A stretch of DNA of 40,658 nt, from positions 1 to 40,658 of the forward strand of contig JAKSCQ010000224.1 of NCBI GenBank assembly GCA_022360555.1, in the 5' to 3' direction. Every line of letters starts with the position of its first letter. The stretch's first letter is position 1. The notes under the pieces were generated by a model, which ran no database searches, was not told where the DNA came from, and was given only the letters and a program-made list of their open reading frames with translations. Origin of the DNA: Pseudomonadales bacterium. Its GTDB lineage: Bacteria > Pseudomonadota > Gammaproteobacteria > Pseudomonadales > Alcanivoracaceae. Both the position numbers and the translations under genes were made by a program. Below are positions 8,461 to 14,325 of this stretch, piece after piece.

Positions 8461-8597
8461 GGAAGCTCCTTAGGGAATGTATCACTTACTGGTTTTGTAA
8501 TGGTTTAGGCCTGAATGAACCATAGCTGTCGTGTAAAAGCTGGTAAAGTGGCGCGTTTCCAACATTGGTAACCAGTTGCAGTTTTACGGATAAGACA

Positions 8598-9425
8598 TTG
8601 ACTTCTGACGATTTTACGCCACCACCGGTCAAGCTCATGGAGCGTTTGCTGGCGCCTTCCAGTGCCTGGTTTCAGCCACGACTGCGAGGGGCCGATAATG
8701 TTGACCCGCAGCGCCCGGCACTGTTTGTCGGCAACCATGGGCTGTACGGGCTGATCGATTCCCCGTTGTTCGTGCTGGCCCTGTATCGCCAGACCGGGGT
8801 CTTTCCCCGTGCCCTGGGTGACCGGTTGCACTTCCAGGTGCCCGGTTGGGGCAAGCTGTTGCAGCGCTGGGGCGCAGTGGAGGGAAACCCCGACAACTGC
8901 CGGGCACTGATGCAAAGCGGTCAGTTTGTACTGGTGTTTCCTGGTGGTGCCCGCGAAGTGGCCATGCGCCGCGATGAAGTGCATCGGTTGGTATGGAAGC
9001 AGCGTACCGGTTTTGCCCGCATGGCCATCGAAAACGGTTACGACATTATCCCGTTTGCCTCGGCGGGCTGTGACAGAACCTATCGCGTGCTCTACGACGG
9101 TCAGGATTTTCGTCAGTCCCGTCTGGGCAAGCTGTTGCTCAAATCGCGGCGTCTCAATCAGGTCATGCGCGATGGTGATACTTTCATGCCACTAGGTCGC
9201 GGCGTGGGCCCGACCCTGATTCCCAAGCCCGAGCCGCTGTGGTTTCAGATCGGCAAGCCGATTTCCACCGCACCCTGGTCGGGGCGGGCGGGTGACAGGG
9301 AGGCATGCTGGGCCCTGCGCGATCAGGTCTCCGCGTCCATCGAGCATATGCTGGCCACCCTGGAAGCGGAGCGTTCGGCCGTGCGCTCACGGGGCTGGCG
9401 AGGCTGGCTACTGAAGGATTCCTGA
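8598..9425 (+). CDS. MGAT/TMEM68-like acyltransferase
   Basis: A lysophospholipid/glycerol acyltransferase-fold protein of about 275 residues. Motifs: VGNHGLYGLID (N46, H47, D54), where the His-to-Asp spacing is longer than the classical Hx4D, and VFPGGAREV (about 113-121), typical of the MGAT/DGAT2/TMEM68/phytyl-ester-synthase branch, not PlsC. Such enzymes esterify glycerides or fatty alcohols; in wax-ester-accumulating Alcanivorax a neutral-lipid role is attractive but unproven. The start is uncertain: TTG 8598 is chosen by fit to the protein, TTG 8565 or ATG 8637 are alternatives, and none has a strong ribosome binding site. It precedes the AGPS-like operon by 138 nt. Confidence 0.75.
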   Translation: MTSDDFTPPPVKLMERLLAPSSAWFQPRLRGADNVDPQRPALFVGNHGLYGLIDSPLFVLALYRQTGVFPRALGDRLHFQVPGWGKLLQRWGAVEGNPDNCRALMQSGQFVLVFPGGAREVAMRRDEVHRLVWKQRTGFARMAIENGYDIIPFASAGCDRTYRVLYDGQDFRQSRLGKLLLKSRRLNQVMRDGDTFMPLGRGVGPTLIPKPEPLWFQIGKPISTAPWSGRAGDREACWALRDQVSASIEHMLATLEAERSAVRSRGWRGWLLKDS

Positions 9426-9563: not shown

Positions 9564-11183
9564 ATGCGACGCTGGAACGGCTGGGGCGACAGCGCCAATC
9601 ATTACCCTCTCAAGGCTTCGGGCCTGGCATTTCTGCAGGAGCGGCTGGGTGCCGCCACGCCACTGACGGATGCTGAACTGGCCAGCGTGGAAAAACAGGT
9701 GCCGCCATCGCGCCTGCCTGCCCATCCGCTGATAAAGACCGACCACGAAACCCGCATTCGCCATGCCCGGGGGCAGAGCCTGCCGGACTGGCTGGCCATG
9801 CGGTCCGGCGACTTTAAACGGTTCCCCGATGGCGTGGCCACCCCCGAAAACAGTGACCAGGTGCGGGCCTTGCTGGACTGGGCCGCGGAGCAGGGCGTGG
9901 TGGTGATTCCTTATGGCGGCGGCACGTCCGTGGCCGGGCATATCAATCCACCGCCATCGGATGCGCCGGTCCTGACCCTGTCACTGGCCGCCATGGACCA
10001 GTTGCTGGCACTGGACCGGGAAAGCCAGATCGCCACCTTCGGGGCCGGCACCCCGGGGCCGCAGGTGGAAGCGCAGCTGCGCGCGCAGGGCTACATGCTG
10101 GGCCACTTCCCCCAGTCCTGGGAGCTCAGCACCATCGGTGGCTGGGTGGCCAGTCGTTCCAGTGGCCAGCAATCCATGCGCTACGGGCGCATTGAACAGA
10201 TGTTTGCCGGAGGACGGGTGGAAACCCCGCAGGGGACACTGAACATTCCCACCATTCCGGCATCTTCCGCCGGCCCGGATCTGCGCGAAATGATCCTCGG
10301 CTCGGAAGGGCGCATGGGCGTGATCACCGAAGTGAAAGTGCGCGTGACTCCGTTACCGGAAAGCGAAACCTTCCAGGTGGCCTTTGCCCCGGACTGGGAC
10401 ACGGCGATTGCGTTGGTTCGCGAGCTGACCCAGGCAAAACTGCCGCTTTCCATGTTGCGGCTTTCCAACGCGGAAGAAACCCGCACTCACCTGATGCTGG
10501 CCGGCCATGAAAAAATGGTAGGCATGCTGCATCGCTACCTGTCCCTGCGTGGCTGCGGGGACGACAAATGCATGATTACCTTCGGGCTTACCGGCGATAA
10601 ATCCCTGGTCCGCCACACGCTTGGCATGGTGAAAAAGCGGCTGCGAGCCGCCGGCGGTGTGTTGGTGGGCACCTTGTTGGGGAAAAAATGGGAAGAATCC
10701 CGGTTCCGGTCACCGTATCTGCGCCATGGGCTGTGGGAGCATGGCTATGCGGTGGATACCTTCGAGACCGCCGTGGACTGGAAAAACGTCACCGCTGCCA
10801 TGCGGGCCATGGAGCAGGCGGTGCGTGATAACGCCGGCGATGACGGCCGGGTGCATGTTTTCACGCACCTGTCGCATCTTTATCCGCAAGGCTCCAGTAT
10901 CTATACCACCTATGTGTTCCGCTGCAGCGACAGTTATGAGGCCACACTGGCGCGCTGGCAGGCCATGAAACGGGCGGCCAGCGATGCCATCGTCGCCCAC
11001 GGCGGCACCATCAGCCACCAACATGGCGTGGGGCGAGACCACGCGCCCTGGCTCCAGCACGAAAAGGGGGAGCAGGGGATGGGCGCCCTGCGCCAACTGG
11101 TAGGGTATTTTGATCCACAGCACCGGCTTAATCCCGGTTGCCTGCTGGAAGACGCACCGCAACATCAATCAGGGACGGAGTAA
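9564..11183 (+). CDS. Alkyldihydroxyacetonephosphate synthase-like FAD enzyme
   Basis: A 539-residue flavoprotein of the VAO/PCMH family, closest by motif to alkyl-DHAP synthase (AGPS). Seen: the N-terminal RRWNGWGD, characteristic of AGPS; the FAD loop PYGGGTSVAGH (116-126); HFPQSWELSTIGGWVASRSSG; GSEGRMGVITEV; the IYTTYVFR segment in the place of the AGPS catalytic Tyr region; and SHQHGVGRDH (H485, H487), matching the AGPS active-site HHH motif. AGPS swaps the acyl of acyl-DHAP for a fatty alcohol, forming the ether bond. A D-lactate or 2-hydroxyacid dehydrogenase is less likely given RWNGWG. ATG 9564 has GGGAG 7 nt upstream. It overlaps the next gene by 1 nt (TAATG). Confidence 0.82.
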   Translation: MRRWNGWGDSANHYPLKASGLAFLQERLGAATPLTDAELASVEKQVPPSRLPAHPLIKTDHETRIRHARGQSLPDWLAMRSGDFKRFPDGVATPENSDQVRALLDWAAEQGVVVIPYGGGTSVAGHINPPPSDAPVLTLSLAAMDQLLALDRESQIATFGAGTPGPQVEAQLRAQGYMLGHFPQSWELSTIGGWVASRSSGQQSMRYGRIEQMFAGGRVETPQGTLNIPTIPASSAGPDLREMILGSEGRMGVITEVKVRVTPLPESETFQVAFAPDWDTAIALVRELTQAKLPLSMLRLSNAEETRTHLMLAGHEKMVGMLHRYLSLRGCGDDKCMITFGLTGDKSLVRHTLGMVKKRLRAAGGVLVGTLLGKKWEESRFRSPYLRHGLWEHGYAVDTFETAVDWKNVTAAMRAMEQAVRDNAGDDGRVHVFTHLSHLYPQGSSIYTTYVFRCSDSYEATLARWQAMKRAASDAIVAHGGTISHQHGVGRDHAPWLQHEKGEQGMGALRQLVGYFDPQHRLNPGCLLEDAPQHQSGTE

Positions 11184-12682
11184 TGCTGGGTCAACGCCGC
11201 AGTCTGGCTGCAGTGGAACAGGAAGAGTGGGATCTGATCGTCATTGGGGGCGGCATCACCGGTGCCGGCGTGTTGCTGGAAGCGGCTCGCCGGGGGCACC
11301 GTGTGTTGCTGCTGGAACAGACGGATTTCGCCTGGGGCACCTCCAGCCGGTCTTCGAAGATGGTACATGGCGGCTTGCGCTATATCGCCCAGGGGGACAT
11401 TCGTCTTACCCGCCATTCCCTGCTGGAACGGGAACGTCTGATCCGGGAACTGCCCGGCCTGGTGGAGCGTGCCACCTACCTGTTTCCCTTGCGCAAAGGG
11501 GTTTTCCCCGGGCGCTGGCCCATGAAGGCGGTGCTCTGGCTGTACGATTTCCTCGCCGGCATTCGCGATCATCGTTACCTCAGTCGCGAACAGGTGCTGC
11601 AACGGGTGCCGGACCTCAAGGGCGATGACCTGACCGGCGCCATGAGCTATACGGATGCTCTCACCGATGACTGTCGCCTGGTCATGCGTACCCTGCTGGA
11701 AGGTTGCCGTCATGGTGGTTGGGTGCGCAACTATACCCGGGTGGAGTCCACCTCCCGTGACGGTGATCGCTTTCGCGTGCAGGTCAAGGACCGGGAAAGC
11801 GGCGAAACCGCGACGCTCAACACTCACCGGGTGATCAGCGCCACCGGCGCCTGGGCAGACCGGCTTTCCGGCAGCGATCCCCGGGTGCGCCCCTTGCGTG
11901 GCAGCCACCTTTTCGTCGATCCAGCCAAGCTGCCGGTAAAAGACTGCCTGACGGTGATGCATCCCGACGATGGTCGCCCTGTTTTTGTCTTCCCCTGGGA
12001 GGGCGTCACCTGTGTCGGCACCACGGATCTGGACCATCCCCAGGACATGGATATCGAAGCCGCCGCCAGCCATCAGGAAGTGGATTATCTGCTGAAACTG
12101 GTCAACACCCAATTCACCGAGCATCCGGTATCACGGGAGGATATTTATTCCACCATCGCCGGGGTACGCCCGGTGATTGCTTCCGGCAAGGGGGTCGATC
12201 CTTCCAAGGAGCGGCGTGACCATGCGGTGTGGGGTGACAACGGTGTCGTCACCGTCAGCGGTGGCAAGCTGACCACCTTTCGGTTGATCGCCCTGGACGC
12301 GCTGCTGGCCGCCGGGCTACTGGATGAAACCACACATCGTCGTGAGCAGAAGTCCGACGCCCCCGGCTTTACCCCCATCACGGATGCACCTCGGGCGGTG
12401 GAGTCTTTCATGCAGGCGGACCAGACCGAGCCGGCCTTTATCCAGTGGATTCTGGAGCAGGAGGCGGTGGTACATCTGGATGACCTGATGCTTCGCCGCA
12501 CCCGCCTCGGACTGCTCAACCCCGCTGCCGGCATGGCGGTGCTGGAACCAATGAAGGCGGCCATTCAGGCGCAACTGCAGTGGGATGATCAGCGCTGGGA
12601 CCAGGAAGTGCGGCGTTATCTTGATATCCATCAGCGCTACTACGGCGTGCCCGCTGCGGAACCTCGGAAGGCCTGCGGATGA
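11183..12682 (+). CDS. FAD-dependent glycerol-3-phosphate dehydrogenase (GlpD family)
   Basis: A 499-residue GlpD/GlpA-type flavoprotein. The dinucleotide-binding motif IGGGITGAG (21-29) is followed by TDFAWGTSSRSSKMVHGGLR, the classical GlpD signature, and later by TIAGVRPVIASG. The family oxidises sn-glycerol 3-phosphate to dihydroxyacetone phosphate at the membrane and passes electrons to quinone. Start ATG 11183 shares its A with the upstream stop; GGGACGGAG precedes it. It overlaps the downstream kinase (ATGA). Placed between an AGPS-like enzyme and a kinase, it may supply DHAP for ether-lipid synthesis or act on an alkylated glycerol phosphate instead of serving ordinary glycerol catabolism. 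Confidence 0.88.
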   Translation: MLGQRRSLAAVEQEEWDLIVIGGGITGAGVLLEAARRGHRVLLLEQTDFAWGTSSRSSKMVHGGLRYIAQGDIRLTRHSLLERERLIRELPGLVERATYLFPLRKGVFPGRWPMKAVLWLYDFLAGIRDHRYLSREQVLQRVPDLKGDDLTGAMSYTDALTDDCRLVMRTLLEGCRHGGWVRNYTRVESTSRDGDRFRVQVKDRESGETATLNTHRVISATGAWADRLSGSDPRVRPLRGSHLFVDPAKLPVKDCLTVMHPDDGRPVFVFPWEGVTCVGTTDLDHPQDMDIEAAASHQEVDYLLKLVNTQFTEHPVSREDIYSTIAGVRPVIASGKGVDPSKERRDHAVWGDNGVVTVSGGKLTTFRLIALDALLAAGLLDETTHRREQKSDAPGFTPITDAPRAVESFMQADQTEPAFIQWILEQEAVVHLDDLMLRRTRLGLLNPAAGMAVLEPMKAAIQAQLQWDDQRWDQEVRRYLDIHQRYYGVPAAEPRKACG

Positions 12683-14241
12683 ACGAGCCCTTGCTGCTGG
12701 CCCTGGACCAGGGCACGCAAAGTAGCCGGGCCATGCTGTTCAATGCCCGGGGAGAGCTGGTGGCCCGCTCCCAGCAGCATATCGAACCCTATGTCTCACC
12801 CCGGCCAGGCTGGGCGGAACAGGACGCCGATTACTTCTGGGAAATGCTGGGGCAGGCCTGTCAGGGGCTGTGGGAGCAGCACCCTGAGCTGCGCGAGCGG
12901 ATCGTGGCGGTTTCTCTGACCACGCAGCGCGCCTCGGTAGTCTGCCTCGACAAGGCCATGAAGCCGCTGCGGCCGGCGGTGATCTGGCTGGACCAGCGAC
13001 GCACCCATGACTTCCCCCGGCTACCTCTCTGGTATGCCGCGCCCGTGTCGCTACTCGGCCAGGGGGAAACCCTGCGTCAGTTTCAATCCAAGGCGGAATG
13101 TAACTGGCTGGCCGTGGACGAGCCGGAAATCTGGCAGCGCACGGCGCACTTCTTGCTACTTTCCGGGTACCTGAATTATCGCCTGACAGATGCAATCCGC
13201 GACTGCACCGCGTCCCAGGTGGGATATCTGCCGTTTGATTACAAGGGCCTGCAATGGGCTGCGGCCCATGATCTGAAATGGAAAGCACTGCGTGTACGCC
13301 GTGACCAGTTGTCGGAGCTGGTGCCCCCGGGGCAATCGCTGGGGCAGGTTACTGCCAGGGCCAGTCGCCACACCGGCATCCCGGCCGGGCTACCGGTGAT
13401 CGCCAGTGGTGCCGACAAGGCCTGCGAGGTCCTCGGCGCCGGCGCCTTTACGCCGGATATCGGCAATTTGAGCTATGGCACCACGGCCACCTTCAACACC
13501 TGCAATGCCCGCTATGTGGAACCCATCCCTTTTGTGCCGGCCTATGGTGCGGCGGTGCCGGAGCGCTACAACTCGGAAATCATCGTCCAGCGTGGCTACT
13601 GGATGGTGAACTGGTTCAAGCGCGAATTCGCCCAGCAGGAGGTGCAGCAGGCCCAGGAGCTGGGGGTGTCACCGGAGACCCTGTTCGAGCGTTTTCTGGA
13701 CGAGTCCCCAGCGGGGGCCATGGGGCTGACACTGCAACCGTTCTGGAACCCGGGTGTGAGAATCCCCGGACCCGAAGCCAAGGGCGCTATTATCGGTTTT
13801 GGCGACGTGCATACCCGCGCCCATCTGTACCGGGCAATCATTGAAGGGATTGCGTATGCCCTGCGCGAAGGGAAGGAGCGGCTGGAAAAGCGCAATCGTG
13901 TGCCGGTGAAATCCCTGCGCGTTTCCGGGGGTGGCTCCCAGAGTGATGCCATCATGCAGATTACCGCCAATATTTTTGGCCTGCCCGCCGAGCGGCCTCA
14001 CACGTCGGAAACGTCCGGCCTGGGCGCGGCGATCAATGCTGCTGTGGGGGCGGGTATCCACCCGGATTATCCCGACGCCGTGGCCGCCATGACCCGACCG
14101 GGCCAGCGCTTTGAACCACAAGCGGCATTGGTCGACCGCTACGACGCCCTGTACCGGCAGGTATACCGCAAGATGTACGGGCGTCTTTCCCCGCTCTATC
14201 GTTCCATTCGCCAGATCACCGGTTACCCGGCCAAGGTATAG
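12679..14241 (+). CDS. FGGY-family kinase (glycerol kinase-like, substrate unknown)
   Basis: A 520-residue sugar/polyol kinase. The N-terminal phosphate loop is LALDQGTQSSRAMLF (about 7-21); later come VSLTTQRASVV, VIWLDQRR, SGADKACEVLGAGAF, and the C-terminal ATP-site segment LRVSGGGSQSDAIMQITANIF. It is clearly FGGY, but the sequence around the polyol-binding site departs from canonical GlpK: where GlpK has its GQ-RTT and GWVEHD-type segments, this protein has TQSSRAMLF and GWAEQDADYF. Substrate could be glycerol, dihydroxyacetone or an alkylglycerol. It is the last gene of the coupled trio (ATGA overlap) and is followed by a repeat element. Confidence 0.85.
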   Translation: MNEPLLLALDQGTQSSRAMLFNARGELVARSQQHIEPYVSPRPGWAEQDADYFWEMLGQACQGLWEQHPELRERIVAVSLTTQRASVVCLDKAMKPLRPAVIWLDQRRTHDFPRLPLWYAAPVSLLGQGETLRQFQSKAECNWLAVDEPEIWQRTAHFLLLSGYLNYRLTDAIRDCTASQVGYLPFDYKGLQWAAAHDLKWKALRVRRDQLSELVPPGQSLGQVTARASRHTGIPAGLPVIASGADKACEVLGAGAFTPDIGNLSYGTTATFNTCNARYVEPIPFVPAYGAAVPERYNSEIIVQRGYWMVNWFKREFAQQEVQQAQELGVSPETLFERFLDESPAGAMGLTLQPFWNPGVRIPGPEAKGAIIGFGDVHTRAHLYRAIIEGIAYALREGKERLEKRNRVPVKSLRVSGGGSQSDAIMQITANIFGLPAERPHTSETSGLGAAINAAVGAGIHPDYPDAVAAMTRPGQRFEPQAALVDRYDALYRQVYRKMYGRLSPLYRSIRQITGYPAKV

Positions 14242-14253
14242 CAACACCCATCG

Positions 14254-14325
14254 CCGTTGGCGCTTTGCTCGCAAAGCGAACTTTCCAGTGCGGTGCCATT
14301 CGCTTTTCGAGCAAAGCTCCAACGG
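14254..14325. repeat. REP-like inverted repeat, 27-bp arms, 18-bp spacer
   Basis: Left arm 14254-14280 begins CCGTTGG and includes CTTTGCTCGCAAAGCGAA. Right arm 14299-14325 is its reverse complement with 2 mismatches in 27. The spacer is 18 bp. It lies 12 nt after the kinase stop and probably acts as a transcript end or RNA-stabilising structure, like other intergenic palindromes. The spacer equals that of the element at 38985-39054. Confidence 0.75.

Follow-up and report, generated by a model that had tools for sequence, protein, structure and literature searches.

The closest described relative of the system treated here is the Pseudomonas aeruginosa operon PA3026-PA3024, which encodes an FAD oxidoreductase, a GlpD homologue and an FGGY kinase and is controlled by the AraC regulator GliR (Kotecka et al. 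2021, PMC8151288). An excess of GliR raises PA3026-PA3024 together with plcA, the gene for a phospholipase C (PA3464), more than 100-fold, yegS (PA3023) 47-fold and PA3342 15-fold (PMC8151288). In the sections of that paper considered here, a forward model leading from glycerol to alkylglycerone phosphate is the only one proposed, alkylglycerols are not mentioned, the arrangement is described as limited to few strains, and the strains found outside Pseudomonas are described as lacking glpD and glpK. Two further reports, as far as the parts consulted go, touch the same genes and are silent on direction: PA3026 stood at 0.5 (label free) and 0.57 (iTRAQ) in cells on n-octadecane compared with n-hexadecane (PMC5491041), and PA3025 appears in a microarray gene list (PMC4412052). 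The operon itself is thus already known, with a published forward model and no phenotype. We analyzed a stretch of 40,658 nt (contig JAKSCQ010000224.1, assembly GCA_022360555.1, forward strand; hereafter the window) from a Pseudomonadales bacterium of the Alcanivoracaceae, in which genes for an AGPS-type flavoprotein, a GlpD-type dehydrogenase and an FGGY-family kinase overlap end to start. The original prediction had offered two functions, ether-lipid synthesis and its reversal, and the comparative evidence fits the latter better. We regard it as about evenly balanced whether the operon serves the breakdown of 1-O-alkylglycerols, in which the alkylglycerol would be converted via alkylglycerol phosphate and alkyl-dihydroxyacetone phosphate (alkyl-DHAP) to a fatty alcohol and either DHAP or acyl-DHAP.

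In the proposed pathway the FGGY kinase would phosphorylate the alkylglycerol to 1-alkyl-sn-glycerol-3-phosphate, and the GlpD-like enzyme would oxidize its C2 hydroxyl to the ketone of alkyl-DHAP and pass the electrons to quinone. Enzymes of the GlpD family are quinone-linked, and their reaction runs toward the ketone. The AGPS-type flavoprotein would then perform exchange chemistry opposite to that of ether-lipid synthesis: with the DHAP skeleton held by the flavin, the alkoxy group would exit as a fatty alcohol and be replaced by a fatty acid, giving acyl-DHAP, or by water, giving DHAP. Two strongly driven steps, one using ATP and one delivering electrons to quinone, would precede an exchange taken as reversible and could so set the direction. 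Since kinase and GlpD together would turn an alkylglycerol into alkyl-DHAP, the reverse pathway would account for all three genes. Conversely, GlpD enzymes, running toward the ketone, would not make the alkylglycerol phosphate needed in synthesis. We infer substrate, direction and the choice between acyl-DHAP and DHAP as product from the gene order, family placement, residues and co-occurrence reported below.

A pattern scan with one genome per species returned at least 573 stretches encoding a relative (stretches, not counts of loci or species), and gene order was read in the best 80 named loci among them. Of these 80 loci, 75 have all three genes co-oriented and in the conserved order, a coupling that exceeds chance. 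The flavoprotein stop is followed by the GlpD start within 30 bp in 61 of the 75, and the GlpD stop by the kinase start within 30 bp in 43 and within 100 bp in 66; starts were inferred by alignment to the window, with overlaps scored like small gaps, and one value or more is plainly wrong (the lowest, -1569). Among the exceptions, one locus ends at a contig edge (L107) and two have GlpD and kinase together elsewhere in the same genome (L088, L092). The flavoprotein has an ortholog (at least 55% identity) in 37 of 57 relatives. All 37 also have a match to the non-GlpK kinase, on the same contig in every case other than G022, where kinase and GlpD share a different contig. The window's family comprises 36 genomes; four of them (G017, G026, G033, G035) have neither flavoprotein nor kinase, and GlpD of the operon type (at least 50% identity) is present in all 36. 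Such a GlpD, devoid of flavoprotein and kinase and adjoining an OmpA-type gene, was seen at L046, L048 and L049, which represent three of the four lacking genomes, and at L047 (G024:C20). The stand-alone GlpDs nest within the operon GlpD clade in a tree that carries a long-branch warning, and the simplest reading is therefore joint loss of flavoprotein and kinase with retention of GlpD. That these two genes come and go together while GlpD stays favors the reverse model. At L059 (G045:C13) the order is GlpD (30%), a divergent AGPS-like protein (29%) and a kinase ortholog (48%), possibly an independent assembly of the same pathway.

The family assignments made in the original prediction were upheld by Pfam: the flavoprotein combines FAD_binding_4 and FAD-oxidase_C, the GlpD-like protein DAO and DAO_C, and the kinase FGGY_N and FGGY_C. 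No NCBIfam model among the matches listed for the three proteins reached its cut-off (for the GlpD-like protein, 25 of 27 models were listed). The best solved relatives of the flavoprotein are AGPS 2uuu (266 bits) and 4bby (212 bits), which we take to be the Dictyostelium and guinea pig enzymes; the top D-lactate dehydrogenase reached 87 bits. The tree comprised 47 rows, 45 of them different; operon proteins account for 21 rows (19 distinct). A branch with 100/100 support parts 39 AGPS-side rows, the window's flavoprotein among them, from 8 rows of D-lactate/glycolate-type dehydrogenases, which were labelled by motif and in one case also by glcE/glcF neighbors. The phylogenetic comparison that had been suggested as a check thus set the protein apart from the D-lactate/2-hydroxyacid type. 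The 21 operon rows form one clade (100/100) within an AGPS side in which the order of clades is not settled, and the tree program warns of long branches for L059, 4bby and L159. All 8 dehydrogenase-type rows carry GDGN-H and (G/A)EHG motifs, which the flavoprotein lacks, and on these grounds together with the tree split a D-lactate or 2-hydroxyacid dehydrogenase was ruled out.

The two motifs originally pointed out in the flavoprotein are indeed present, RWNGWG at residues 3-8 and HQH as H485-Q486-H487, and further residues noted in it are H181, R299, R387 and Y447. RWNGWG recurs in 20 of 21 operon flavoproteins, and WNGWG is found in both solved AGPS sequences. The AGPS positions H300, R419, R515, Y578, H615 and H617, which we take to be catalytic residues, are conserved in all 21 operon rows. 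The full HHH motif of AGPS is kept only in L058; the other 20 of the 21 operon rows, the window's among them, have glutamine at position 616. We do not take the middle histidine alone to define the family. The flavoprotein belongs to the AGPS type, and an exchange activity between acyl-DHAP and fatty alcohol is predicted for it. Its place on the AGPS side and the retained catalytic positions favor the reverse model.

The kinase falls short of the NCBIfam cut-offs for glycerol_kin (149 bits against 590) and XylB (248 against 380). Seven GlpK residues (R83, E84, W103, Y135, D245, Q246 and F270), presumably the glycerol contacts, are kept in all 7 GlpK comparison rows. All 22 operon kinase rows retain R83, W103 and D245 but have other residues at E84, Y135 and Q246 and a gap at F270. 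Identity with GlpK is ruled out by the score and the lost contacts, and the substrate is probably one other than free glycerol; as far as can be read from the protein sequence, loss of the polar contacts would suit a substrate with a substituted distal hydroxyl. The window's own genome encodes a canonical GlpK above the curated cut-off, as do 31 of the 32 flavoprotein-bearing genomes examined. These 32 genomes were drawn from the 80 loci; 4 are named Pseudomonas, and 2 are Chloroflexota that lack a kinase ortholog at the locus. The presence of GlpK elsewhere and the altered contacts of the operon kinase both favor the reverse model.

The best solved relatives of the GlpD-like protein are 3da1, 2rgh, 2rgo and 2qcu. 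R66, Y67, H242, R329, R345 and K362, the residues that we assume to line the GlpD substrate site, are conserved in 22 of 22 operon rows and likewise in 9 of 9 comparison GlpDs, and this retention is a further argument for the reverse model. The protein misses the GlpD equivalog cut-off of NCBIfam (273 bits versus 360). In the GlpD tree the operon and stand-alone rows form a clade (100/99), and the 9 comparison GlpDs, 6 of which adjoin GlpK, lie across a branch with 97/93 support, so that operon GlpDs have no place among the glpK-linked ones. An operon-type GlpD is the sole match with an E value below 1e-10 in 35 of the 36 family genomes, including the window's own; outside the family, a second GlpD accompanies the operon in G036, G038, G041, G050 and G054. 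Its status as sole GlpD, and its retention in genomes without flavoprotein and kinase, speak for ordinary glycerol or glycerol phosphate catabolism, with flavoprotein and kinase as an accessory 2-hydroxyacid dehydrogenase and sugar kinase. We consider this very improbable in view of the position of the flavoprotein off the 2-hydroxyacid dehydrogenase side, the absence of the dehydrogenase motifs, and a kinase that is not GlpK and occurs in step with the flavoprotein.

The forward model, proposed in print for PA3026-PA3024 (PMC8151288), would lead from glycerol through glycerol-3-phosphate to DHAP; once this had been acylated by another enzyme, the flavoprotein would form alkyl-DHAP from it, on the way to ether lipids. 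An AGPS-like flavoprotein with its catalytic residues is in keeping with this model, and in the window an acyltransferase gene lies just upstream, ending 138 bp 5' of the operon and bordered on its other side by an OmpA-type lipoprotein gene. However, among family members an acyltransferase of this type also adjoins a GlpD that lacks both companions, flavoprotein and kinase (L047, L048), and none was detected next to the operon at L051 or L052. Because its occurrence does not follow that of the flavoprotein, we judge it a neighbor and not a part of the operon, and it was rejected as a GNPAT partner. At L072 the gene upstream of the operon encodes an NAD-epimerase-type protein (Epimerase, 129.6 bits) with a weaker match to the FAR-type domain PF07993 (64.7 bits); such a neighbor would point toward synthesis. 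Several observations tell against the forward direction. With canonical GlpK in nearly all genomes tested there would be no need for another glycerol kinase. The operon kinase lacks three GlpK contacts, DHAP is a general metabolite, and outside the window's family kinase and GlpD would be left redundant. Pfam detected no FAR or GNPAT domain in the three operon genes (the rest of the genome was not searched for them), unlike in the operon described for Myxococcus (PMC9131029, in the parts seen). Among ten genes adjoining related operons none was of the GNPAT type, and the FAR-type match was confined to L072. PF10520 (PEDS1/CarF family, desaturases that bear on plasmalogens only) had no hit in any of 7 genomes, one of them the window's own, in a search without positive control. 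The forward half of the original prediction is thus the weaker one, and we deem it improbable.

The surroundings of related genes hint at a lipid substrate for the proposed breakdown. On plasmids of Streptomyces fungicidicus and Tsukamurella tyrosinosolvens (L145, L146) a DAGK_cat/YegS lipid kinase gene comes after the gene for a 39% relative of the flavoprotein, and the pair is divergent from genes encoding a TetR protein and a GlpD-like enzyme. Immediately upstream of their AGPS-GlpD pair, both Chloroflexota loci have a gene for a GntR regulator with a FadR_C domain (L124:2195-2914, L138:3905-4654), a domain of the acyl-CoA-binding type, and a YegS gene lies downstream in 9 of the 80 loci, all of them Pseudomonas. 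In Nonomuraea, the third actinobacterial case, a GlpD-like gene is present, and YegS was not found within 6 kb on either side. The mycobacterial genes Rv2249c, Rv2251 and Rv2252 may form a parallel. Taken broadly, with confidence slightly short of even, we propose an oxygen-independent route in which phosphorylation by a kinase and oxidation by a quinone-linked dehydrogenase would prepare alkylglycerols for ether cleavage via a flavin adduct by an AGPS working in reverse, the kinase being of the FGGY or the diacylglycerol-kinase type depending on the phylum. The joint rise of the operon and plcA under excess GliR (PMC8151288, sections seen) also favors the reverse model. A GliR-like AraC gene was assigned by clustering to 46 of the 80 loci, one member having been tested by Pfam; no such gene was detected among the Pfam-tested flanks of the window (the OmpA-type lipoprotein gene, the acyltransferase gene, a gene without Pfam match, MerR, an antiporter and an MFS gene).

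A number of points weigh against alkylglycerol breakdown. FGGY kinases act mainly on small polyols, and a lipid substrate would be unusual. As the sole GlpD of most family genomes, the operon-type enzyme probably also oxidizes plain glycerol-3-phosphate. The Chloroflexota loci L124 and L138, which are further exceptions to the three-gene order, have only flavoprotein and GlpD and no FGGY ortholog at the locus. Among ten plasmid loci with an AGPS-like gene (L145-L154), GlpD-like genes occur in 3 and YegS in 2, and neither was found in the seven loci L147-L149 and L151-L154. The neighbors beyond the three genes differ between loci and are mostly uninformative, and the FAR-type match at L072 belongs in the same column. 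Deletion of PA3026-PA3024 produced no phenotype on rich medium, citrate, glycerol, under osmotic stress or on the Biolog plates named (PMC8151288, sections seen). Reversibility of AGPS is assumed, and we found no paper showing the reverse reaction; among the papers listed in a literature survey, mostly without subscription papers, none dealt with a bacterial alkylglycerol pathway or a reverse AGPS. Finally, 3 of the 11 rows of an AGPS-like sister clade (L148, L175, L176) come from plasmid gene sets of Aminobacter, Sphingopyxis macrogoltabida and Xanthobacter dioxanivorans that include GST, adenylate-forming and dehydrogenase genes, with no GlpD or FGGY/YegS kinase annotated beside them. These sets presumably resemble those for degradation of polyethylene glycol (PEG) or dioxane, and the fold therefore does not fix the substrate.

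This last point bears on the possibility that the same three-step logic applies to another substituted glycerol, be it a monoacylglycerol, a plasmalogen-derived alkenylglycerol or another glycerol ether, so that the group exchanged or released would not be a saturated alkyl chain. The comparative arguments against free glycerol apply equally to such compounds, the PEG/dioxane-like sets suggest that the chemistry of the superfamily may exceed alkyl-DHAP, and HQH in place of HHH hints at some change. On the other hand, L148, L175 and L176 have methionine at the position equivalent to R515 and keep H300, R419, Y578 and H615-H617; their substrates may be unphosphorylated. Retention of R515, which we assume to be part of the site for the DHAP phosphate, in every operon row points to an AGPS-like phosphorylated substrate, and we consider a different substituted glycerol rather unlikely. 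For alkylglycerol breakdown the hydrocarbon-degrading lifestyle invoked in the original prediction is unneeded, because the operon is also carried by genera that are not known to us as hydrocarbon degraders. Its hosts include Endozoicomonas and Pseudovibrio, bacteria associated with corals and sponges, in which ether lipids are abundant.

The features of the locus are collected in the table below; both gene overlaps are as originally described. The stop codon of the flavoprotein gene and the start codon of the GlpD-like gene have one base in common, 11183. The GlpD-like reading frame runs from ATG to TGA, and a longer reading from a TTG start at 11138 is also open.

Features of the operon and its upstream neighbor in the window
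Feature	Position	Strand	Basis
AGPS-type FAD flavoprotein, 539 aa	9564..11183	+	Pfam, solved relatives, tree, residues
GlpD-type glycerol-3-phosphate dehydrogenase homologue, 499 aa	11183..12682	+	Pfam, solved relatives, clade, residues
FGGY-family kinase, not GlpK, 520 aa	12679..14241	+	Pfam, NCBIfam scores, GlpK positions
TAATG stop/start overlap, flavoprotein/GlpD-like gene	11181..11185	+	sequence
ATGA start/stop overlap, kinase/GlpD-like gene	12679..12682	+	sequence
PlsC/DAGAT-superfamily acyltransferase, neighbor	8565..9425	+	Pfam PF01553, PF03982

A scan for promoters and terminators gave a signal no better than that of shuffled sequences. Directly 3' of the kinase gene lies a REP-like inverted pair (14259-14278 on the plus and 14301-14320 on the minus strand). 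Its 20-base core occurs at 98 sites in the window's own genome with at most 2 mismatches (50 forward, 48 reverse), some of which form inverted pairs about 50 bp apart; the same pattern read backwards gave 0 sites. In four other loci, members of one protein cluster are encoded directly upstream of the flavoprotein (L068:6827-7855, L107:6857-7897, L115:3295-4317, L125:6896-7936); those of L068 and L115 match DUF4062, and that of L068 also shows a weak match to TIR_2.

With the eukaryotic AGPS enzymes 2uuu and 4bby the operon flavoprotein has in common the fold family as judged by sequence, the WNGWG motif and the six positions H300, R419, R515, Y578, H615 and H617. It differs from them in the glutamine at position 616 (20 of 21 rows), and its operon adds a kinase and a GlpD-like gene; the reverse function would be a new use of AGPS. 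In Myxococcus, the AGPS homologue MXAN_1676 is encoded in MXAN_1676-1674 with a FAR1/GNPAT-like fusion and an NAD-dependent epimerase-type protein, and disruption lowers ether lipids a little, ElbD being the main route (PMC9131029). The FAR1/GNPAT-like enzymes would supply fatty alcohol and acyl-DHAP. The contrast between these synthesis-linked partners and the kinase and GlpD of the window's operon also favors the reverse model.

Alkyl ether bonds are chemically stable. AGMO, a tetrahydrobiopterin-dependent monooxygenase, was in 2021 the sole enzyme known for alkylglycerol breakdown, and a mammalian precedent exists for the alkylglycerol kinase step (EC 2.7.1.93), both according to the sections seen of PMC7911779. 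The proposed pathway would have the same net outcome as AGMO, cleavage of the alkylglycerol ether bond. If it is correct, many bacterial species hold an ether-cleaving chemistry that is distinct from AGMO and needs no oxygen at the bond, and ether lipids from animals, protists and other microbes would be recycled by it. The operon and the regulator GliR, published without a phenotype (PMC8151288, sections seen), would then gain a function and a class of substrates. By that paper's description PA3026-PA3024 comprises the same three gene families as the window. The two systems differ in that the window's genome yielded a single GlpD match and its Pfam-tested flanks no gliR-like gene. GlpK, described in that paper as lacking in the strains found outside Pseudomonas, was present in all but one of our 32 genomes, a comparison between differing genome sets. 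The Pseudomonas loci among our best 80 have the same gene order as the window, with flavoprotein identities of 60-66%.

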